Assembly (NCBI GenBank): GCA_903953895.1 | Contig: CAJBLH010000116.1 | Location: 1-37,793 of the forward strand | Origin: an uncultured Desulfobacteraceae bacterium | GTDB lineage: Bacteria > Desulfobacterota > Desulfobacteria > Desulfobacterales > Desulfatirhabdiaceae | Reading direction: 5' to 3' | Length of the DNA: 37,793 nt | Shown: positions 25,593 to 36,532 of the stretch, piece after piece | Position numbering within the stretch: position 1 is the stretch's first letter | How the letters are laid out: every line of letters begins with the position of its first letter | Made by a program: the position numbers and the translations under genes | The notes under the pieces: generated by a model | The model's input: the letters and a program-made list of their open reading frames with translations, nothing else | The model's database searches: none | Told to the model about the DNA's origin: nothing

Positions 25593-26303
25593 ATGAAAGA
25601 TCAGATAGATATCCTTGTTTCACTGCAGCAGATCGAAATTGAATCTTCAAGTGTTAAATCACACCTGTGTACCATGTCCAAACGACTGGATATTCTCAAT
25701 AACAGCCGGAATGAATTGCAGCAGCACATCACGGATGAAACCGCAAAAGTTGAAGAATTGAGAAAACTGTATCGCTCCCACGAAACAGACATCAAACAGA
25801 ATCAGGTCATGATCAAAAGAAGTCAGGATCGACTCAATTCCATCAAGAACAATCGGGAATATCAGGCGCTGGTAAAAGAAGTTGAAGAGCTGAAGCGAAC
25901 CAATATCGCAACCGAAGATATGATGATCGATTTGCTGAATCAAATCGATGACTGCGAGAAAAAAACGGTGCTGATGCAGGCAGAGCTTCAACAGGTGAAA
26001 GATGATATCTTGCTGGAACAGCAGGTTGTTGGTGCTGCAACTGAAACCGCTGATAACAGGCTGAATGAATTGGATCAGGAACGGCAGAAACTGTCCTGCC
26101 AAATTGAAACGGAGGTGCTGAGTCTGTTTCAGAGGGTTCAGTCGCAGCAAGTCAGGGGTAATGCCGTTGTTCCGGTTCAGGATGCTGTCTGTCATGGATG
26201 CTACGTCAATATCCCGCCGCAGATGTATAATGAACTCCAGCGGTGCGACAAATTGACAATGTGTCCGAACTGTCAGCGGATCATTTACTGGAAACAGAAT
26301 TAA
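25593..26303 (+). CDS. Coiled-coil C4 zinc-ribbon protein (CT398/HP0958 family)
   Basis: The 236-residue protein is mostly a long antiparallel coiled coil (about residues 5-185, with SLQQIEIE, YQALVKEVEELKR and similar heptads). It ends in a zinc ribbon formed by CHGC (200-203) and CPNC (224-227). The layout matches the CT398/FlgZ-type family; related proteins bind RNA or sigma factors in other bacteria, but the role here is unknown. Its place between the Nif3-like gene and the RNase P RNA gene is typical of this lineage, from general knowledge. The ribosome binding site is weak. Confidence 0.88.
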   Translation: MKDQIDILVSLQQIEIESSSVKSHLCTMSKRLDILNNSRNELQQHITDETAKVEELRKLYRSHETDIKQNQVMIKRSQDRLNSIKNNREYQALVKEVEELKRTNIATEDMMIDLLNQIDDCEKKTVLMQAELQQVKDDILLEQQVVGAATETADNRLNELDQERQKLSCQIETEVLSLFQRVQSQQVRGNAVVPVQDAVCHGCYVNIPPQMYNELQRCDKLTMCPNCQRIIYWKQN

Positions 26304-26310
26304 TCGATAT

Positions 26311-26728
26311 ATGGCCGAAGTAGACCAGACGATCGCCGGGTTTTTCATGATCCGGAGGAAAGTCCGAACACCACAGGGCAGGGTGCTCCATAACGTGGAG
26401 TCGTGGCAACGCGAAGGAAAGTGCAACAGAAAATATACCGCCCGGCCGGTTTCATCTTCCTAATGGAAGGCGAAGCTCGCCGGGTAAGGGTGAAATGGTG
26501 CGGTAAGAGCGCACCAGTTCTTCGGGCGACCGGAGAAGCTTGGTAAACCCCACCTGGTGCAAGACCAAATAGAGGAGCGTTTGAGGGCGGCCCGTCCGAG
26601 CTCCCGGGTAGGTTGCAAGAGGCGCCTGGCAACAGGCGTCCACAGAGGAATGATCGTCAGCCGCAGCCGGGTAACCGGCTGCGGACACAGGATTCGGCTT
26701 ACGGGCTGCTTCGGCCATTTTATTTTTT
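26311..26728 (+). ncRNA. rnpB: RNase P RNA (bacterial type A)
   Basis: The RNA is recognised by the conserved P4 strands GGAGGAAAGTCC (26354-26365) and ACAGGATTCGGCTTA (26688-26702). The L15 loop GGTAAACCCC (about 26541-26550) binds the tRNA CCA end. The P1 stem ATGGCCGAAGTAG pairs with GCTGCTTCGGCCAT at the two ends, and a T-rich stretch after the 3' arm probably ends transcription. It is the ribozyme part of the enzyme that matures tRNA 5' ends. It lies directly downstream of the zinc-ribbon gene. Confidence 0.96.
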
Positions 26729-26752: not shown

Positions 26753-27511
26753 ATGCTGTTGATCGAGGAACTCAGGGTTGAAGTGGGGGGTAAACCCATC
26801 CTGAAGAATGTAAACATGCATATCCCTGAAGGCGAGACCCACATTCTTTTCGGTCCCAACGGCTCCGGTAAAACCAGCCTGATGATGACACTCATGGGAT
26901 TCTCCGGCTATGTCGTCACACATGGCAAGATTACCTTTAAAAACCAGGATATCACCCATCTGCCGATTTTTGATCGGGCCCGGATGGGCATTGGCATATC
27001 CTTTCAGCGGCCGCCAACCATCAATGGCCTGAAAACCCGCGCCATGGTTGAAATCTGCGCCGGAGAGCGATCCGTGGATGTCGATGCGCTGTCTGCCCAG
27101 TTGAAGTTTCAGGATTTTCTGGAAAGGGATGTGAACCATAATTTTTCCGGAGGCGAAATCAAACGTTCCGAACTGCTCCAGCTTATGGCCCAGCAGCCGG
27201 ACCTGGTGCTTCTTGATGAACCGGAATCCGGCGTAGACTTAGAAAGTATTGTCATGCTGGGCGACACCATCAACAATCTGCTCCGAAGGGGCATTGAACG
27301 TCCGAGTCAAACACCGCATCGGCAGATTGTCGGAGATCGGTCCAAGTCGGCGCTGGTAATTACCCATACGGGTCATATTCTGGATTACATCAATGCCGAC
27401 AAAGGCCAGGTGCTTTACAACGGCGTTCTGTGCTGTTCGCGAAACGCCCGGGAAATCCTGAAATGGATTCGGGAATATGGCTACGAGGAGTGTGTACGAT
27501 GTCAGATGTAG
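26753..27511 (+). CDS. sufC: SufC-like ABC ATPase of iron-sulfur cluster assembly
   Basis: The 252-residue protein has Walker A GPNGSGKT (34-41), the SufC-type Q-loop ISFQRPP, the signature NFSGGEIKRSELLQL, and Walker B LVLLDEPESGVDLES. EPESGVD rather than EPTSGLD is a SufC mark. A polar insert (RGIERPSQTPHRQIVGDRS) precedes ALVITHTG. It would power iron-sulfur cluster assembly with the SufB-like partner, whose gene overlaps its last 13 bases. AAGGA lies upstream of the ATG. Confidence 0.88.
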   Translation: MLLIEELRVEVGGKPILKNVNMHIPEGETHILFGPNGSGKTSLMMTLMGFSGYVVTHGKITFKNQDITHLPIFDRARMGIGISFQRPPTINGLKTRAMVEICAGERSVDVDALSAQLKFQDFLERDVNHNFSGGEIKRSELLQLMAQQPDLVLLDEPESGVDLESIVMLGDTINNLLRRGIERPSQTPHRQIVGDRSKSALVITHTGHILDYINADKGQVLYNGVLCCSRNAREILKWIREYGYEECVRCQM

Positions 27512-28671
27512 AAAAAATAAGGGTAAACCTGAAAAGCTATCGGGATGATGCCGACCCTCACGATTATCTTCCTGAGTTAACCCGGATGGATGCAGAAGAT
27601 GCTCAGCAGTTTTTAAATGTGGGGGTCGATCCATCCGAAAGCGGACGCGGTGGCTCTTTCATTCAAATGGATCGTTCCGTGGTTCATTGTAAATCCTGTC
27701 AGCCAGGGGTTGAGATCATGGGAATCTCACAGGCTCAGAAACAGCATGAATGGCTGGAAGACTATATCTGGAAGAGTGTGTCTCCGGAAAGTGATCCGTT
27801 TACCAGCCGGGTCAAGGAAACGCCCCATGAAGGATATTTTATCCGCTCCCTGCCCGGTGTAAAATCCCACCAGCCGGTTCAAGCCTGTCTGTACATCGCC
27901 AGCGAAAAATTTTCCCAGCATGTTCACAACATCGTCATTGCCGAAGAAGATTCCGAACTTCACATCATCACAGGCTGTGCGACAGCTCCGCATCTGGTTT
28001 CCGGGCTTCATGTCGGCGTTTCGGAATTCTACATCAAAAAAGGGGCAAAGCTTACCTTCACCATGATTCACGACTGGGGGGAAAAGATCAATGTGCGCCC
28101 ACGAACCGTCACCCGTGTGGCGGAAGGCGGCATCTTCATTTCCAACTATATTTCGCTTAGACCCGTCGGTTCGCTCCAGATGTTTCCAACCACCTATCTC
28201 GAAGGCAGGGGGGCGATGGCCCGGTTCAACAGCATTCTGGTCGCCAGCAAAGGAAGTCATCTGGATGTGGGGTCGCGCGTGATCCTGAGCGCTCCGGAAA
28301 CCCGTGCCGAAATCATCTCCCGGGGGATCACCACCGGTGGCACCATCATTGCCAGAGGGGATCTGGTCGGAAAGGTCGCCGGCGTCAAGGCCCATCTCGA
28401 ATGCAAAGGTCTGATTCTGAATAATGGCATTATGCACGCCATCCCGGAGCTATCCGGTCATGTTCCGGGGGTGGAAATGTCTCATGAGGCGGCTGTGGGT
28501 AAAATCGACAAGCGGGAAATTGAATATCTGATGGCCAGGGGGCTCGATGAAGAATCCGCCGTCTCCACGATTGTTCGGGGCTTCTTGAATGTGGATATCG
28601 AAGGACTGCCGCCAGCATTGAAACAGAAGCTGGATCAAACCGTTTCTGAAACCCAGAAAGACATGATGTAG
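27499..28671 (+). CDS. sufB: SufB-like iron-sulfur cluster scaffold (SmsB-type)
   Basis: The 390-residue protein belongs to the SufB/SufD beta-helix family. Residues needed in E. coli SufB are retained: the Cys of GCATAP (C160), a Cys at C302 (ECKGLIL), and His-Glu at 329-330 (EMSHEAAVGKI). It is shorter than classical SufB and has no sufD, sufS or sufU neighbour, which fits the two-component SufBC-like (SMS) scaffold found in many anaerobes. The ATG at 27499 overlaps sufC by 13 bases, so the pair is translationally coupled; the 23-codon upstream extension is not used. Confidence 0.87.
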   Translation: MSDVEKIRVNLKSYRDDADPHDYLPELTRMDAEDAQQFLNVGVDPSESGRGGSFIQMDRSVVHCKSCQPGVEIMGISQAQKQHEWLEDYIWKSVSPESDPFTSRVKETPHEGYFIRSLPGVKSHQPVQACLYIASEKFSQHVHNIVIAEEDSELHIITGCATAPHLVSGLHVGVSEFYIKKGAKLTFTMIHDWGEKINVRPRTVTRVAEGGIFISNYISLRPVGSLQMFPTTYLEGRGAMARFNSILVASKGSHLDVGSRVILSAPETRAEIISRGITTGGTIIARGDLVGKVAGVKAHLECKGLILNNGIMHAIPELSGHVPGVEMSHEAAVGKIDKREIEYLMARGLDEESAVSTIVRGFLNVDIEGLPPALKQKLDQTVSETQKDMM

Positions 28672-28694
28672 CGATAACAAAGGAGATAATAAAC

Positions 28695-29999
28695 TTGTCA
28701 GCACCTGCTTGCGATATTCCTTTTATTGAAAAAACCCAATTTTTCGCGCATGACCTTTTCAAATGCTGTTTGTATATTTCCAGTTATCAGACACAACAGA
28801 ACGTCTTCACCAAGGTGCTGTATTCCAAATTGACGGCAACCACCAAACTGCTGGAAGATTTTCTCGATTTTCATGGCGCCAAGAATAACAAAAACTGGTA
28901 TTATTTCAGAGAGCTTACGGCAACCATCATCCATCTTAGCATCGCCAGTTATTCCCAGAAACATATCTATAACCGCCTAACTTTTTATGGACTGGGAAAT
29001 ACGACTGAATTCGAAGCTCAGGGTCAGGTGACCCAGACATTTTTGAATTCATCGCTGGTCAAACTCGCCCCGGCCATCCTGGAGGAAGCTCAAAGATTAA
29101 ACATCCCCATCCCCGACAAAGGCTATGAACCTTCTGATTTTCCTACGGCAACCACCTGTGAAATGCTGGAATCCGATGTCGATGATCTGGATAAAGATCT
29201 GCAGAAACAGCATATCGTAAAAATCGCAAGCGAGTTTCTCAGTATTGCCGGCAACTTCGATCAATTGGGCTTTTATGAGCCTTATGATATTCACGAAATC
29301 CGAGCCATTGTTCCTGAAAAAATCAATGAAGTTGAAATTCGCCGTTTCGAGATGCTGGTACACAATCTTCAGTCTTCGTTCGACACCTATGTGATTCATG
29401 GGGGATATCGATTCGGGAAGCAAAAACTGACGGATTTGCGCGGTCATTTTTCAGCCGTATTTCATCTGCTTCAGATTACAGGACGCCTTCTTCATCTTTA
29501 TGAGCGGCATCTGCATGAAGCTGGGTATAAAAATACCTATAAACTGGTTCAGGAGCGGCTGTCTTCCCTGGTGGACCCGGAAGTGCTGCTGGACCGGACC
29601 ATCAATTACGGCCTGTATTATGCCTGTCATTTTCTGAATACCGGCAAAAAGCTGGCGCGGGAAATCCTGAATGAGAATATCGAACGATCTGCGATTAAAG
29701 TCGGCATTCCGGTGGCATTGGGCTTTCACAGCCGGCCGAGTCTTCTGGTCGCTAAAATCGTTCAGTATTACGGCGGGCAGGTCGAGCTGTGCATCGGGGC
29801 GGACCGGTTCGACGCCAGCAGTGTGCTGGATATTCAATGGGCCGGCGGGAAAATCCACAAGGAGAACGTTACGGAAGTGGTTTTTGAAGGCGATACCCGC
29901 GCCCTGGTGGATATTGAAATTCTGGCGGGAGTCAATTATGGGGAAGACACGATGGGAAAAGGGGTTCCGCTGCCGAAAGAACTGAAATATCTAAGATAA
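28695..29999 (+). CDS. Unknown protein with C-terminal HPr-like phosphocarrier domain
   Basis: The 434-residue protein starts at TTG, nine bases after AAGGAG. Residues 1-336 are predicted mostly helical and have no motif I recognise. Residues 337-434 match the HPr fold: GIPVALGFHSRPSLLVAK places His345 where HPr carries its phospho-His. FDASSVLDIQWAGGKI aligns Ser376 with the regulatory Ser46 of HPr, and GDTRALVDIEIL is the last helix. In PTS-type systems HPr passes phosphate from enzyme I. Here no enzyme I or HPr kinase lies nearby, and the gene follows the SUF-type pair by 23 bases. The role is unknown; a phosphorylated regulatory switch is inference. Confidence 0.6.
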   Translation: MSAPACDIPFIEKTQFFAHDLFKCCLYISSYQTQQNVFTKVLYSKLTATTKLLEDFLDFHGAKNNKNWYYFRELTATIIHLSIASYSQKHIYNRLTFYGLGNTTEFEAQGQVTQTFLNSSLVKLAPAILEEAQRLNIPIPDKGYEPSDFPTATTCEMLESDVDDLDKDLQKQHIVKIASEFLSIAGNFDQLGFYEPYDIHEIRAIVPEKINEVEIRRFEMLVHNLQSSFDTYVIHGGYRFGKQKLTDLRGHFSAVFHLLQITGRLLHLYERHLHEAGYKNTYKLVQERLSSLVDPEVLLDRTINYGLYYACHFLNTGKKLAREILNENIERSAIKVGIPVALGFHSRPSLLVAKIVQYYGGQVELCIGADRFDASSVLDIQWAGGKIHKENVTEVVFEGDTRALVDIEILAGVNYGEDTMGKGVPLPKELKYLR

Positions 30000-30000
30000 A

Positions 30001-30063
30001 GTAGTCAGTAGTCAGTAGTCAGTAGTCAGTAAGCAGTAAGCAGTAAGCAGTAAGCTGTGGTCA
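30001..30063 (+). repeat. Heptanucleotide tandem repeat
   Basis: Nine consecutive 7-base units: GTAGTCA four times, GTAAGCA three times, then GTAAGCT and GTGGTCA. It begins two bases after the stop of the HPr-tailed gene and ends about 70 bases before ispD. A period of 7 cannot encode a simple repeated peptide in one frame, and the region is not translated. Confidence 0.9.
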
Positions 30064-30132
30064 GTTTTATGGGTGCAGGCATTTTTATGAGAACTGATGA
30101 CAGACAACTGATCCTTTTTTGAGAGTGTGTCG

Positions 30133-30840
30133 ATGACTGTTTCAGCCATAATCGTTGCCGGAGGTAAGGGGATTCGTATGGGGGCAGCGGTCCGCAAGCA
30201 GTATATGCTGCTGGCGGGCAGACCGATCGTCTGTCTGACGGTGGAGGTCTTTGATGCCTGTTCCTGTATCGATGATATTTTTCTGGTGGTTCCGCCGGAT
30301 GATCTGGGTGTCTGCGCTGAAAAATGGATGGCTTCACTGACTTTGTATAAAAGAATTCATCTGGTTGCCGGAGGTGTCGAGCGGCAGGATTCGGTGTATC
30401 GAGGGATCCAGGCTGTCGGTGGCGCCTGCGATGTCGTGGTGATTCATGATGCAGTGCGTCCCTTTGTCAGCCTCCAGATGATCGAATCCTGTGTCGCTGA
30501 AGCCCGTACTTCGGGTGCCTGCATCATCGGAATGCCGGCGATGGAAACGGCAAAACAGGTGAATTCAGGTGAAATAGAGCGTACGCTGGATCGAAATACG
30601 ATCTGGCTGGCTCAGACCCCGCAGGCTTTCAATTTCGATCTGATCCGAGCGGCCCACGAAACGGCCCGATCCGATCTCTTCATGGGAACCGATGACGCCA
30701 TGCTGGTCGAGCGGCTGGGACGAAAGGTCCGGATTCTTCCGGGTTCCCGGCTGAACATCAAGATTACAACACCGGAAGATCTGGCTTTGGCAGAGGGGAT
30801 CATTCATCGAATGCCATCTGATTATTTTCCTGTTCATTAA
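30133..30840 (+). CDS. ispD: 2-C-methyl-D-erythritol 4-phosphate cytidylyltransferase
   Basis: The 235-residue protein catalyses the CTP-dependent step of the methylerythritol phosphate (isoprenoid) pathway. The glycine-rich nucleotide loop is VAGGKGIRMG (8-17) with the Lys of RKQY (22). Further motifs are VAGGVERQDSVYRGI, VVIHDAVRPFV, AMETAKQV, TPQAF, GTDDAMLVER and LNIKITTPEDLALAE. Its ATG follows GAGAG at a good spacing; a GTG six bases upstream is possible. The gene is followed at 31 bases by the flavoprotein gene, probably in one operon. Confidence 0.95.
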   Translation: MTVSAIIVAGGKGIRMGAAVRKQYMLLAGRPIVCLTVEVFDACSCIDDIFLVVPPDDLGVCAEKWMASLTLYKRIHLVAGGVERQDSVYRGIQAVGGACDVVVIHDAVRPFVSLQMIESCVAEARTSGACIIGMPAMETAKQVNSGEIERTLDRNTIWLAQTPQAFNFDLIRAAHETARSDLFMGTDDAMLVERLGRKVRILPGSRLNIKITTPEDLALAEGIIHRMPSDYFPVH

Positions 30841-30871
30841 CCCTGATAACCGGATTTTGGAGGTTTATCTT

Positions 30872-32488
30872 ATGGATCATGCACAACCGGAACCCAGCAG
30901 CCGACAGCAGGCTGACTTTATCAAACAGTTGAAAACAACTTTTGAAAAAATGCCCCATGACATCGAACTGTTGTTGTTTACGCACAAAGGAGGGGAGGAT
31001 GCTTTTGCCGAAGGCGCCAGGCAGGTCGTTCGATCGTTTCGCGAACTGACACCGCGAATCCGGCTGCGTGAATATGGTCTCGATCATGAAATGGCCACAA
31101 AATGGCAGATCGAGTACTCTCCGACGTTGTTGATCGCACCGGACCGATACGGCATCCGCTGGCTGGGCGCGCCCCTGGGCGAGGAGGCCAAAACGTTTCT
31201 GGAGACCATTTTGATGGTGGGGTCCGGCCAGAGCGGTTTAAGCGATCCATCCCGAAAAGTGATTTCAAAAATCGATTCGGTTCGTCAGATCAAGGTGTTT
31301 GTCAGCCCGAGCTGCCCCTATTGTCCACAGCAGGCAGTCAATGCCGTTAAAGCCGTGATTGAAAAACCGGAGCTGATATCGCTTGAAATCATTGATATTC
31401 AGTCTCAGCCGGAAATCGCCCATCAGTATGCCGCACACAGCGTTCCCCAGGCATATGCCAACGACGTATTGATCGGAATGGGTGCGCAGTCCGAGGAAGT
31501 CTTTGCCCTGTCTTTGAGCCGACTGGAACCCCAGACGCTATTTATACCGGACAGCGATGCGGAACTCGTAGATGTTGACCTGTTGATTGTGGGCGGTGGG
31601 CCCGCCGGACTTACGGCCGGTATCTATGCGGTGCGAAGCGGTTTGAAAGCAGCCATTGTCGAGCGCAATGTCCTGGGTGGTCAGGTATCCACCACACCAG
31701 TTGTTGAAAACTATCCGGGATTTACCCAGGTGGGGGGAAAAACCCTGGCGGATATTCTGGTGACCCATGCCCTTGAATATGTTCAGATTTTTCCCGGAGA
31801 AGAAGTGATCGACGTGGTTCCCGGAAAGCCGTTTGAAGTCACCACCGGAAAACGCAGATTCCGTGCCAAAACATTGCTTCTGGCAACCGGCGCCAACCAT
31901 AAGCATTTGAATGTTCCCGGCGAATCGCGATTGTCCGGAAGAGGGGTCAGCTATTGCAGTACCTGTGACGGACCATTGTTCAAGGGCCGAAAAGTCGTTA
32001 TGGTGGGTGGCGGAAACAGTGCGGTCACCGAAGCGCTTCACCTGCATCATATGGGCGTAAGTGTGACGCTGATTCACCGCAAAGACAGTTTGCGGGCTCA
32101 GGAGTTTCTGGTCCGGCAGCTTACGGTCAGTGGAATTCCCATCCTCTGGAATACGGAGATCATGGAAATCGTCGGCAAGGACAGGGTTGAGTCCATTGCT
32201 CTGAAAAACACCCGATCCGGTGAATCTTCATCACTGGCGGTGGATGGTGTTTTTCTTTCCATTGGATATGAACCTGCCGTTGAATTGGCTAAAAAAGTCG
32301 GGGTTGTCCTGACGTCGGACGGCTATATCCAGAAGGACGCCAAGCACCGTACCAGTATTGCCGGGATTTATTCCGCCGGCGATGTCGAAGGCGGATATAA
32401 GCAGATCGTTACGGCCGCAGGTCAGGGCGCCGAAGCCGCGATGTCCATTTTTGAGGATATCATCAATCCTTACTGGCAAAAATCCTGA
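30872..32488 (+). CDS. AhpF/thioredoxin-reductase-like flavoprotein with N-terminal thioredoxin-fold domains
   Basis: The 538-residue protein has two tandem thioredoxin-fold domains followed by a thioredoxin-reductase core. The first fold (to about 120) has no CxxC; the second has CPYC at 148-151. The core has GGGPAG (241-246, FAD), CSTC (362-365, redox-active, usually CATC), GGGNSA (379-384, NAD(P)H) and a terminal GIYSAGDVEGGY. This is the architecture of AhpF or of fused glutaredoxin-like/reductase proteins, so it probably passes electrons from NAD(P)H through CSTC to CPYC. No ahpC lies beside it. GGAGG precedes the chosen ATG. Confidence 0.87.
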   Translation: MDHAQPEPSSRQQADFIKQLKTTFEKMPHDIELLLFTHKGGEDAFAEGARQVVRSFRELTPRIRLREYGLDHEMATKWQIEYSPTLLIAPDRYGIRWLGAPLGEEAKTFLETILMVGSGQSGLSDPSRKVISKIDSVRQIKVFVSPSCPYCPQQAVNAVKAVIEKPELISLEIIDIQSQPEIAHQYAAHSVPQAYANDVLIGMGAQSEEVFALSLSRLEPQTLFIPDSDAELVDVDLLIVGGGPAGLTAGIYAVRSGLKAAIVERNVLGGQVSTTPVVENYPGFTQVGGKTLADILVTHALEYVQIFPGEEVIDVVPGKPFEVTTGKRRFRAKTLLLATGANHKHLNVPGESRLSGRGVSYCSTCDGPLFKGRKVVMVGGGNSAVTEALHLHHMGVSVTLIHRKDSLRAQEFLVRQLTVSGIPILWNTEIMEIVGKDRVESIALKNTRSGESSSLAVDGVFLSIGYEPAVELAKKVGVVLTSDGYIQKDAKHRTSIAGIYSAGDVEGGYKQIVTAAGQGAEAAMSIFEDIINPYWQKS

Positions 32489-33284: not shown

Positions 33285-34865
33285 TCAACTTACTTCAAGT
33301 TTCCAGTCCGACACCCTTCGCTGACTGGAGTCGAACGATATCCCCAGCAGCAGAAGCTTGCAATTCAGTTCTCTGAAACGGTCCGCATAGCCTCTTTCAT
33401 GTATTTGCCGCAGTCCGGCTTCAGCCGATTGGTTGCACTTGAATTCCATGATCCACACCTTGTCCGGAAACTGCACCACCAGATCGATACGGCCCTGGCT
33501 GGTCAGCACTTCGCTTTGTGCATGGGCACCCGACGCGGACACCATCAGGTAAAACAGCGTGTGAAACCAGGCTTCGTTGGGCTCTCCTTTCAGGGTGTAA
33601 GGAATGGAGGCGAATATGGCGTTGACGGTTTCAAAGAAAGCATCCAGGTCTTCGGATTTCAAATACCCCCACAGGCGCACGAAACGGGATTGCTCCGATC
33701 CCGGCCGGCCTTCTGTGAACGAATGCAGCAGGTGTTTTAAAAAGGCGCATTTGACTTCGAGATTCGGATATCCCAGCCACCAGATATCGCCGTCTTCGGT
33801 AACATCCTTGATGGTGAGATACCCGGTCTGGAACAGCAGGGCTTCCACGCTGAGATGCTCCAGGTCATATACGCTGAAAATGGATTTGACCACCTCCATG
33901 TTCTCCATTTCCGGCAGCGGATAATCACGCTCTCGCAGCAGATTGACCAGAAATGTCGGGGTGCCGGTTTCAAACCAGAAGTTTTCGATCTTGCAGATAT
34001 CCAACGCCCGCAATATCGAAAAAGGGTTGTAAACGTCAATCGCGGCTTCCGAAAAGCGATAGCCGTCGTAATGAGCGCACAACCGGTTGGATAATTGAGA
34101 CAGCGACAAATTCAACCGTTCATGCATCCTTTCCAGATACCAGCCGAAATTCCTGTTCAGTTCCTCTTCCGTATAGCCCAGCATGGCCGCATAGCGTTCG
34201 TCCAGTGTGATATCGATCAGATTGTTCAGATCGGAGAAAATGGAAACCCGGCTGAATTTCGACACCCCGGTGATAAACACGAACCGGGTGTGGCTGGCCA
34301 CATCCGCACCCTTGAGGGTTCCGAAAAAAGTCTTGAGAATATCCCGGTTGGCCCTGGCGGTTTTCATGGCCGCCGCCCCCCTGCCCAGATGATCGATGAT
34401 GGGTTTGTCGTATTCGTCGATCAGGATGACCACGGGCCGGCCGGTTTTCTTTTGGAGCGACAGGATCAACTCCTGAAATTTGCCTTTCAACAAAGGATGG
34501 CGGAGATCGATATCGGCGGAGTGAGCGGACTGTACAAGAGACATTTCCAGGTCGAGCCTGAAGTTTTCCGGCGTGTCGTGACTGATGGCATTGAAATCCA
34601 GCAAAACCACCGGAAAGGCATCCCATGACCAGTTGCCGTGCTGATCGATCCACAAGTCTTTGAACAATTCCCGATTTCCGGCGAACAGATTGCGGAGGGT
34701 CGATACCATCAATGTTTTGCCGAACCGGCGGGGCCGGGCCATGAAATAGTATCGGCCTTCTTCGAGCATCCGGTGGATGTATGGGGTTTTGTCCACATAC
34801 AAAAACCCTTCCCGGCGGATGATTTCAAACGATTGCAGGTCGATCGGCAGTTTGAGCGAGGTCAT
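33285..34865 (-). CDS. AAA-ATPase-like/PD-(D/E)XK nuclease fusion protein
   Basis: The 526-residue protein has the AAA-ATPase-like domain of the DUF1703 group: FLYVDKTPYIHRMLEEGRYYF, Walker A-like RPRRFGKT (44-51), ILIDEYDKP with the Walker B Asp-Glu (150-151), and the FVFITGVSKFSRVS sensor region. The C-terminal PD-(D/E)XK domain has D461 in GRIDLVV and E474-x-K476 in WIMEFKCN. The genes are common and variable in anaerobes; the function is unproven. The start at 34865 (after GAAAGG) is used; the 28-codon upstream extension runs into the G-rich repeat. Confidence 0.85.
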   Translation of the reverse strand: MTSLKLPIDLQSFEIIRREGFLYVDKTPYIHRMLEEGRYYFMARPRRFGKTLMVSTLRNLFAGNRELFKDLWIDQHGNWSWDAFPVVLLDFNAISHDTPENFRLDLEMSLVQSAHSADIDLRHPLLKGKFQELILSLQKKTGRPVVILIDEYDKPIIDHLGRGAAAMKTARANRDILKTFFGTLKGADVASHTRFVFITGVSKFSRVSIFSDLNNLIDITLDERYAAMLGYTEEELNRNFGWYLERMHERLNLSLSQLSNRLCAHYDGYRFSEAAIDVYNPFSILRALDICKIENFWFETGTPTFLVNLLRERDYPLPEMENMEVVKSIFSVYDLEHLSVEALLFQTGYLTIKDVTEDGDIWWLGYPNLEVKCAFLKHLLHSFTEGRPGSEQSRFVRLWGYLKSEDLDAFFETVNAIFASIPYTLKGEPNEAWFHTLFYLMVSASGAHAQSEVLTSQGRIDLVVQFPDKVWIMEFKCNQSAEAGLRQIHERGYADRFRELNCKLLLLGISFDSSQRRVSDWKLEVS

Positions 34866-34916
34866 GGCAGGCCTTTCATATCGATTGTGATTGTTGACAG
34901 GTAACCGTTCACTCCT

Positions 34917-35006
34917 CCTCCCAACGGGAGGGGGCCGGGGGGAGGGCAACTGGTTGGCATGACAGCATTTTCCCCCCTCCCGACCTCCCCCCGCTGGGGG
35001 GAGGGG
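34917..35006. repeat. G/C-rich nested palindromic element
   Basis: It contains CCTCCC-aac-GGGAGG on the left and CCTCCCCCC-gct-GGGGGGAGG (34984-35004) on the right, with pairing also possible between the two parts and flanking CGTTCA/TGAACG copies. It sits between the intact ATPase gene and its decayed paralogue. A related stretch occurs at 411-441. Confidence 0.6.
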
Positions 35007-35090
35007 TCTGAACGATTACGTTGACAGCCATTTGGATCCGATGGTTTTCATTCTTGTTATTGGGCCTGATCCAGAATTTTGAGATAATTT

Positions 35091-36532
35091 CTAAGTTTCC
35101 ACCGCATTGACTTGCAAGCAGCATGTCCGCTCGAATCCCAGCGCCACAACCACAAACCGCTTCAGTCGCAAGGTTCGGCATTTGGCGATGAGGCGGTTTC
35201 CATAGTCCATCACCTGATTTCGGCCTTCGGAGATGGCTTTTTAGCACCGCCGGCAGCGCATGCATCTGCTCCGGTGTCAGGGGGCGAAGTGATTCTCCAC
35301 GCTGATTCAGCTCCTTCAGTCTCAGAAATTTGAACTCGATCAACACATCGAATATGTTCAAATGCCGCTTATCCGGACGAAGGATCATGGTCAAATCCGC
35401 ATAGCGACGCTCCAACTCCGCTTGGCCGCATCCACCCCCTCGATCCCGGATGACGGGATCGGGCAGCATCATCTGCAGCACCCGATCCACATACATCCCC
35501 TGCATGACCAAATTGGGAACCTTCAGGCACAATTCCCCCAGTGCCGTCTCTCCGACCAATGACAGAATTCCGAAATAATACAGAAAAGAGGCGATGAATT
35601 TTTTATCCTTGGAATGATCCGAAAGCATGTTCCGCAAACCGAAACGTTTCTGCATCCGGGGAATATGAATCTGGGCCCCTTTTTCGGCCAGGCGAAAAAT
35701 GATTTCCTCCCCGCCGGACAATCCGGTGATATACTCCAGTTTGCTGTCGTCCGAAGCCAGATTCGCATCGAGCATCTCTTCCGGATACCTGCACCGCTTT
35801 TGAAACTGCTTGAAAAAATACAGGCACAGGGTCGGGTTATAGATGAAACCGGTGCTGCGGGGAATGAAATTGTAGCCGTTATAGTAAATGCACATCATCT
35901 CGAGGGCATCTTCGGCCCTGGATGCGTCCAATTGCGCACACATCCGTGATGTTTCGCAGGGTGGCCGGCACCTCCGCTTCCTGGAACCCGCACAAATCGG
36001 CGAATTCCGGCTTGAAAAACATGTCTTCGGCAATGTCGTAGCCGCTCGTGATGTCACTCATGACCACCGGCGACACCCCCGTGATGAAAACCCGATTGAA
36101 ACCGGTTCCGGAAGAGGACGCCTTGACCACCTTGAACAGGGTGCGCAGCAGACCTTCATCGCGAACCAGGGCGTCGTAGCGCTCTTTGGCATTCTGGATC
36201 GGCAGCATCATGACCGTGTTGGCAAAATTGTCGTATTCGTCGATCAGCAGAAAAATAGGATGCCCAAGCACCTTGACCGATGAAACGATGGACTGGATGG
36301 AATACAAGGCATTGGTCCCGTCCAATACGGCATCCGACAAATCGAATCCGGCTGAGCGGTATGTCCGGATAAAATCTGCGATACAGGCGTTGATATGATC
36401 GTACAAAGAGCGCCTGATTTGATCGGTCGTTCCGGTCGGATCGACACATGAGAAATCCCACCGCAAAATGAAATGGGAATTGCGTAACGGGGTGGGCCGA
36501 TGCAGAATCGGGAATTTCCTTTCCGGAAACAT
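35091..36532 (-). pseudogene. Decayed AAA-ATPase/PD-(D/E)XK gene with frameshifts and missing 5' end
   Basis: Three frames together encode a second member of the AAA-ATPase/PD-(D/E)XK family. Frame 1 (36532 to about 35940) holds LYDHINACIADF, ILIDEYDNF-like Walker B and FNRVFITGVSPVVMSDITSG. Frame 2 (about 35940 to 35242) holds EDALEMMCIYYNGYNF, YITGLSGGEE and FDVLIEFKF. Frame 3 (to the TAG at 35091) holds QVMDYGNRL and FVVVALGFER. The shifts are near 35930-35945, around a GTGTG run, and at the A5 tract 35238-35242. The usual first 100 or so residues, including the Walker A loop, are absent upstream of 36532. Sequence errors cannot be excluded for the shifts, but the missing start makes decay likely. 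Confidence 0.8.

Follow-up and report, generated by a model that had tools for sequence, protein, structure and literature searches.

The gene at positions 28695-29999 of the window (the whole 37,793-nucleotide stretch of DNA analysed, contig CAJBLH010000116.1 from an uncultured Desulfobacteraceae bacterium) encodes a protein of two parts, an all-helical N-terminal region followed by a divergent but genuine HPr domain that occupies residues 331-415. This helical-HPr gene is a core gene of its order, the Desulfobacterales, and its product is not a SUF component. The protein is best read as a PTS-wired regulator in one chain, in which Enzyme I would phosphorylate His345 and thereby control the helical bundles; we put the probability of this reading at roughly 0.55. 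The gene, its domains and its neighbours in the window are as follows.

25593..26303, forward strand: CdsZ-like coiled-coil/zinc-ribbon gene (PF02591; NF047363 76.2 bits, below the cut-off of 275)
26317..26716, forward strand: RNase P RNA, a conserved upstream neighbour (RF00010, 295.6 bits)
26753..27511, forward strand: sufC-like ATPase (TIGR01978 172.5 bits, below the cut-off of 212.8)
27499..28671, forward strand: sufB-like protein, 390 aa (PF01458 132.5 bits; TIGR01980 164 bits, below the cut-off of 346.4)
28680..28685, forward strand: ribosome-binding site AAGGAG, from the sequence, 9 bases ahead of the TTG start
28695..29999, forward strand: helical-HPr protein gene, 434 aa, TTG start, stop codon included
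28695..29684, forward strand: N-terminal region, residues 1-330, all-helical (models and conservation)
29685..29939, forward strand: HPr domain, residues 331-415 (fold model and profile matches)
29727..29729, forward strand: codon of His345, the expected phospho-histidine (His15 of HPr), in GFHSRP (conservation)
29820..29822, forward strand: codon of Ser376, the equivalent of HPr Ser46, in DASSV (conservation)
29940..29996, forward strand: C-terminal tail beyond the HPr fold, residues 416-434 (segment identities and pLDDT)
30127..30840, forward strand: ispD, a conserved downstream neighbour (TIGR00453 221.6 bits, cut-off 181.3)

An earlier note on this DNA had the reading frame begin 23 bases past the iron-sulfur scaffold genes and end at 29999. 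The sequence agrees, with 23 bases between the sufB stop and the start of the helical-HPr gene. The HPr assignment in that note was based on motif, because the window copy alone lies below the curated HPr cut-offs, scoring 14.4 bits against PF00381 (cut-off 23) and 18 bits against TIGR01003 (cut-off 47.9). All of 24 diverse members of the family match both models at E ≤ 0.1, the best E-values being 1.2e-7 for PF00381 and 1.2e-8 for TIGR01003. Among 85 homologues from relatives, 37 match PF00381 at E ≤ 0.001, 17 of them above the cut-off. A profile of the family also retrieves solved HPr structures (E 1.8e-6). In the AlphaFold model of the full protein (pLDDT 87.8, pTM 0.87), residues 331-411 form the elements beta-alpha-beta-beta-alpha-beta-alpha in the order found in HPr. 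HPr chains superpose on this model, the best of them (1kkl_J) with Z 10.7 over 81 residues at 1.9 Å. The fold model, the 1kkl_J superposition and the 24/24 PF00381 matches thus bear out the proposal of an HPr-like C-terminal tail that folds as HPr.

The phosphorylation sites were compared in 182 rows spanning residues 300-420, which contain some genomes fetched more than once and reduce to 134 distinct sequences, the window copy included. Gly343, Phe344, His345, Arg347 and Pro348 are invariant in all 134 distinct sequences, and the earlier assignment of His345 in GFHSRP to an HPr phospho-His context therefore holds across the family. Ser376 in DASSV, previously named as the Ser46-equivalent, is likewise conserved, being kept in 130 of the 134 and replaced by Asn in the other four. 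Mean identities to the window copy were calculated for four segments from 76 rows inside the order and 13 outside (four genomes counted twice, window copy included). The tail (416-434) is the best conserved segment, at 0.85 in the order and 0.66 outside; the corresponding means are 0.80 and 0.53 for the HPr domain, 0.71 and 0.32 for residues 160-330, and 0.56 and 0.33 for residues 10-145. Residues 417-420 of the tail are modelled with pLDDT below 50.

Homologues are present in 85 of 94 relatives; 86 were reported, and the match in G054 (E 6e-4) was removed as false, being the HPr beside its Enzyme I and not a homologue. Among the nine relatives without the gene, the contig ends inside sufB in G002 and G029, inside the CdsZ-like gene in G040, and within 0.9 kb after the CdsZ-like gene in G005 and G089. 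The contig continues 2.4 and 12 kb beyond the CdsZ-like gene in G018 and G080, respectively, with the helical-HPr gene absent, and the CdsZ-like gene itself was not found in G054 and G085. A class-wide sample gave a match in 144 of 147 genomes, and full-length copies show 48-91% identity. A sample of the phylum reported 24 of 247 genomes, of which nine belong to the order and 13 lie outside it after G184 and G333 were set aside. These 13 outside homologues are full-length and 30-47% identical, the most distant being that of G311 at about 28-30%. At least 478 places were confirmed in the GTDB contig collection, and the titles of the best 80 of these are either unspecific or refer to Desulfobacterales, Desulfobacteraceae, 'Deltaproteobacteria' or similar names. 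No match at E 1e-5 was found in 72,556 plasmid records. The two-part architecture is constant, with the helical and HPr parts both present in all 13 retained homologues outside the order; the helical part was never seen on its own, leaving aside fragments at contig ends or in split frames and a 55-residue match in G184 that was not counted.

The earlier note had remarked on the absence of sugar PTS genes around the gene, and indeed none occurs among the 15 window genes compared with Pfam. Elsewhere, the same genome encodes an Enzyme I (TIGR01417 603 bits, cut-off 341.7) with an HPr just upstream, a second Enzyme-I-type open reading frame, RapZ (344.5 bits, cut-off 244), a PtsN-like protein (93.9 bits, cut-off 138.7), an EIIA-Man-like protein (PF03610, above cut-off) and two PTS_EIIA_2 matches. 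The PtsN-like, RapZ and EIIA-Man-like genes are consecutive, and the open reading frames ahead of them are, judging from their starts, presumably rpoN and hpf. A search for Enzyme I in related genomes found its N-domain in 86 of the 94 relatives, and in 83 of these 86 the best Enzyme I row has an HPr no more than 700 bases away. Neither Enzyme I nor free HPr was detected in two carriers, G008 (96%) and G079 (98% complete), where assembly gaps may be responsible. The N-domain was not found in six further relatives (G005, G025, G038, G053, G081 and G084); five of the six are 65-85% complete, and G053 (97%) has an Enzyme I C-terminal piece. Because the helical-HPr gene and Enzyme I are both near-universal in the order, their co-occurrence there carries little weight.

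A search for HPr(Ser) kinase with PF07475 matched 22 of the 94 genomes, in every case over only 43-56 of the 171 positions of the model and above cut-off in two genomes. The match in the window's own genome scores 24 bits against TIGR00679 (cut-off 240). A bona fide HPr(Ser) kinase is likely to be absent from the 94 relatives, an absence that is not firm because the search control missed B. subtilis. Since the kinase model matches only fragments, control of Ser376 by an HPr kinase is unsupported. A distant HprK-related open reading frame was observed in one genome (L197:4617-5435, on G000:C95), scoring 48 bits against TIGR04352 (cut-off 200).

Of the earlier proposal of a phosphorylation-controlled regulator, the tie to SUF is not supported, whereas the core of it stays the best reading because the tail folds as HPr and His345 is invariant (134/134). 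In this chain of events, Enzyme I would pass a phosphoryl group to His345 of the C-terminal HPr domain, and the phosphorylation of His345 would report the PEP/pyruvate (carbon and energy) state of the cell. Contacts made by the HPr face, and probably by the conserved tail, would then let the phosphorylation state switch the binding or action of the helical module. The HPr fold with its intact active site, the constant fusion to a conserved helical module, the near-universal presence in the order and an Enzyme I gene in nearly all carriers are observed; what we infer is that Enzyme I is the donor, that the N-terminal part is controlled in this way, and what kind of target it acts on. Several points count against a PTS-wired regulator: the two near-complete carriers in which neither Enzyme I nor free HPr was detected, the divergence of the domain from free HPr, the scarcity of PTS-related neighbours outside the order (one of six loci), and the presence in the order of a free HPr next to Enzyme I, which leaves no need there for the helical-HPr protein as a general carrier.

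The N-terminal region is predicted to form two helical bundles, at about residues 10-134 and 167-328, and residues 1-330 modelled alone are again all-helical (pLDDT 90.3). It had been described previously as a 336-residue region of unknown fold: no clear match to a known fold has emerged, whereas the models do show that it is helical throughout. Beyond the HPr families, no Pfam or NCBIfam family is common to more than one of the 24 members. The best PDB match to residues 1-330 by Foldseek is a designed protein (E 0.074, probability 0.30). The best hit of the VIA comparison is a de novo bundle with Z 10.9 over 136 residues, a value in the range often reached by helical models. The matches of both comparisons barely cover residues 1-145. 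In the search with the full model, a polyphosphate-binding CHAD chain with Z 8.2 was discounted, as it too falls within that range.

It is conceivable, though rather unlikely, that the helical region is an enzyme and that the HPr domain hands its phosphate to a residue or substrate there, acting as phosphoryl donor to its own N-terminal part and not as part of a binding switch. PTS-driven dihydroxyacetone kinase provides a parallel. Residues E54, D58, E73, E131, H223, S227, D230, R249, H267, R271 and H272 are invariant in the 24 members in and outside the order, down to 30% identity, as might be expected of such an enzyme, but comparison of these members with Pfam and NCBIfam gave no convincing enzyme family for the N-terminal part, only single-member matches at E 0.003 or worse, and no PDB chain stood apart from the designed bundles.

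Within the helical region, the spacing R-x3-[AS]-x3-H-x9-H-x3-R recurs in two helices, at R72/A76/H80/H90/R94 and at R249/S253/H257/H267/R271. An internal duplication of the N-terminal part was considered and rejected: a profile-profile alignment gave E 0.046 over 21 columns in a different register, the best ungapped diagonal scored 10.4 against maxima of mean 9.3 (sd 1.3) in 100 shuffles, and the expected offset was absent from the top 12 of the diagonal scan.

Still less probable is a role of the HPr domain in docking only, whereby it would bind a partner, as HPr does with Rsd or glycogen phosphorylase, and be phosphorylated by another enzyme or by none. The carriers G008 and G079, in which Enzyme I was not detected, are consistent with this, as are the altered residues after helix 2. 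However, the entire active-site loop is invariant (134/134), for which a pure docking surface would have no need.

Seen beside known systems, the helical-HPr protein joins domains in a new way on a phospho-relay that is already known, and does not amount to a system of a new kind. It shares with HPr and NPr (PF00381, TIGR01003) the fold, the G-x-H-x-R-P phospho-His loop and the Ser46-equivalent in DA-x-S. Unlike free HPr, the domain is the C-terminal part of a 434-residue protein, is followed by a conserved tail of 19 residues, and has 23-28% identity with five free HPrs from the order, differing for example in WAGG after helix 2; free HPr coexists with it in most genomes of the order. An HPr domain inside a larger chain is also a feature of FPr/FruB, DhaM and HPr-Enzyme I fusions. 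These combine HPr with other PTS domains, whereas the partner here is a helical region without a PTS or other named domain. The PtsN-RapZ-EIIA-Man regulatory PTS at the rpoN locus has its counterpart in the PtsN-like, RapZ and EIIA-Man-like genes of the same genome, and in G311 rapZ comes after the helical-HPr gene. In the window genome, by contrast, the helical-HPr protein is encoded outside that block, and it has no EIIA or kinase domain. Rsd is a helical protein. The HPr-Rsd complex (PDB 4xwj) offers a likeness in that HPr acts on a helical partner, but in E. coli the two are separate chains, the helical-HPr family gave no match to Rsd in sequence, and no likeness of the helical module to Rsd is claimed.

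HPr-Rsd in E. coli sets a precedent in which HPr binds another protein and thereby acts on it (PMC8509676), PtsO reportedly inhibits LpxD through a direct interaction (PMC13104625), and a few species, including Desulfotalea psychrophila, are reported to have an incomplete PTS phosphoryl chain or none (PMC2405797). Among the open-licence PMC papers listed, no title or opening of an abstract describes the helical-HPr architecture. A near-universal gene of the order whose larger half has no named domain represents a core function awaiting discovery, and the phospho-relay domain on the same chain gives a direct handle on it through His345. The regulator proposed here would also show PTS use in bacteria that are not known for living on sugars.

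Outside the order, a full-length Enzyme I (45-49% identity) is present in all 13 carriers, with an HPr beside it in five. No HPr was found near Enzyme I in the other eight (G311, G362, G216, G252, G385, G312, G338 and G284), in stretches that reach some 3 kb to each side of it, except that one side covers 1.6 kb in G312; the same HPr profile detects the divergent HPr domain of the helical-HPr protein in all 13 genomes. It is possible, although we hold this tentatively, that in several of these lineages the helical-HPr protein is the only HPr, so that the relay would end on an HPr tethered to its effector, as a one-piece PTS output. If this is true, the protein would replace free HPr in some lineages. 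In G337, HPr and Enzyme I matches fall in a single 699-residue open frame (L233:514-2610), a possible HPr-Enzyme I fusion.

In six of the eight genomes without an adjacent HPr (G362, G216, G252, G385, G312 and G284) Enzyme I adjoins dnaG, and rpoD is next after dnaG in five of these six stretches; in G338 Enzyme I lies near a CdsZ-like gene. (The loci concerned are L225, L230, L231, L232, L234, L235 and L237, and L236; L225 and L232 are from the same genome.) The position of Enzyme I beside or near the dnaG-rpoD-CdsZ-like block, in which the helical-HPr gene sits in the order, in seven of eight hints at an old link between the Enzyme I and helical-HPr genes, and is only a hint because the helical-HPr gene lies elsewhere in those genomes. 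A PTS-related direct neighbour was seen only in G311, among six outside loci whose neighbours were compared with Pfam. There (L195:7860-10974), rapZ starts 26 bases past the stop of the helical-HPr gene on the same strand, followed by a gene for a hexapeptide-repeat protein, and the contig also carries Enzyme I at a distance of about 12 kb.

In the window, the order of genes is dnaG, rpoD, tRNA, nif3, CdsZ-like, RNase P RNA, sufC, sufB, helical-HPr gene and ispD. Neighbours were counted at 100 loci, 20 of them chosen for distance and 80 the nearest. Among the 79 loci with at least 3 kb upstream, the CdsZ-like gene lies within 4 kb upstream in 74 and sufC within 2.5 kb in 29; at 47 loci the CdsZ-like gene occurs upstream but sufC does not. 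On the other side, 84 loci have at least 1.5 kb of downstream sequence, and in 78 of them ispD is no more than 800 bases away. RNase P RNA was found by Rfam between the CdsZ-like and helical-HPr genes in all six tested loci that lack a complete sufCB in that place.

That rpoD lies upstream here, as it does at many loci of the order, might suggest an HPr fused to an Rsd-like anti-sigma factor, in which phosphorylation would release or sequester the housekeeping sigma factor encoded in the same block. We consider this very unlikely. No Rsd/AlgQ family occurs among the matches of the 24 members; the 50 structural rows listed contain no Rsd chain. Moreover, dnaG-rpoD-nif3-CdsZ-like-rnpB is a housekeeping arrangement, and in the 13 outside carriers the stretches fetched around the helical-HPr gene yielded no dnaG, rpoD, nif3, CdsZ-like gene or ispD.

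The earlier note had linked the gene to iron-sulfur assembly by its location. In the window the gene lies 23 bases from sufCB on the same strand, and 30 of the 40 relatives with a SufB match (E ≤ 1e-20, genome-wide) have one within 600 bases of the helical-HPr gene, in one case a remnant; seen from SufB, then, the linkage is strong, which we read as inherited gene order. Adjacency could not be judged in G002, G029 and G070, where the contig is cut, and the remaining SufB matches are on other contigs, far away or weak. However, 54 of the 94 relatives have no SufB match at this threshold, and 47 of these still carry the helical-HPr gene, among them G006, a member of the same genus that is 99% complete. 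A constant association with sufCB is thus not seen (sufC upstream in 29/79 loci), and the position beside the iron-sulfur genes looks incidental. The single contig of G017 retains, between RNase P RNA and the helical-HPr gene, a 74-residue remnant of the SufB C-terminus that is 70% identical (L041, G017:C1:2686261-2686482, minus strand), apparently a relic of sufCB loss. As 47 of 54 SufB-less genomes keep the helical-HPr gene, the simplest reading is that sufCB belongs to the older gene order at this locus and has often been lost while the helical-HPr gene stays. A regulator that tunes iron-sulfur assembly by SufCB is therefore the least probable of the alternatives and was rejected as the main reading, given that the adjacency is not conserved, SufB is often absent and its remnant still sits at the site in G017.

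Some further features lie downstream in the window. Between the helical-HPr gene and ispD, a short imperfect tandem repeat of agtcagt/agcagta units is visible by eye at 30003-30050. Sixteen bases after ispD starts an open reading frame for a thioredoxin reductase-like protein (30857-32488), in which a thioredoxin-type region precedes the reductase part; such a match lies within 2.5 kb downstream of the helical-HPr gene in 12 of the 72 loci with enough sequence. Close to the window's end, at 33285-36532 on the minus strand, two open reading frames match the predicted AAA-ATPase-like family PF09820, one of them with a PD-(D/E)XK nuclease end.
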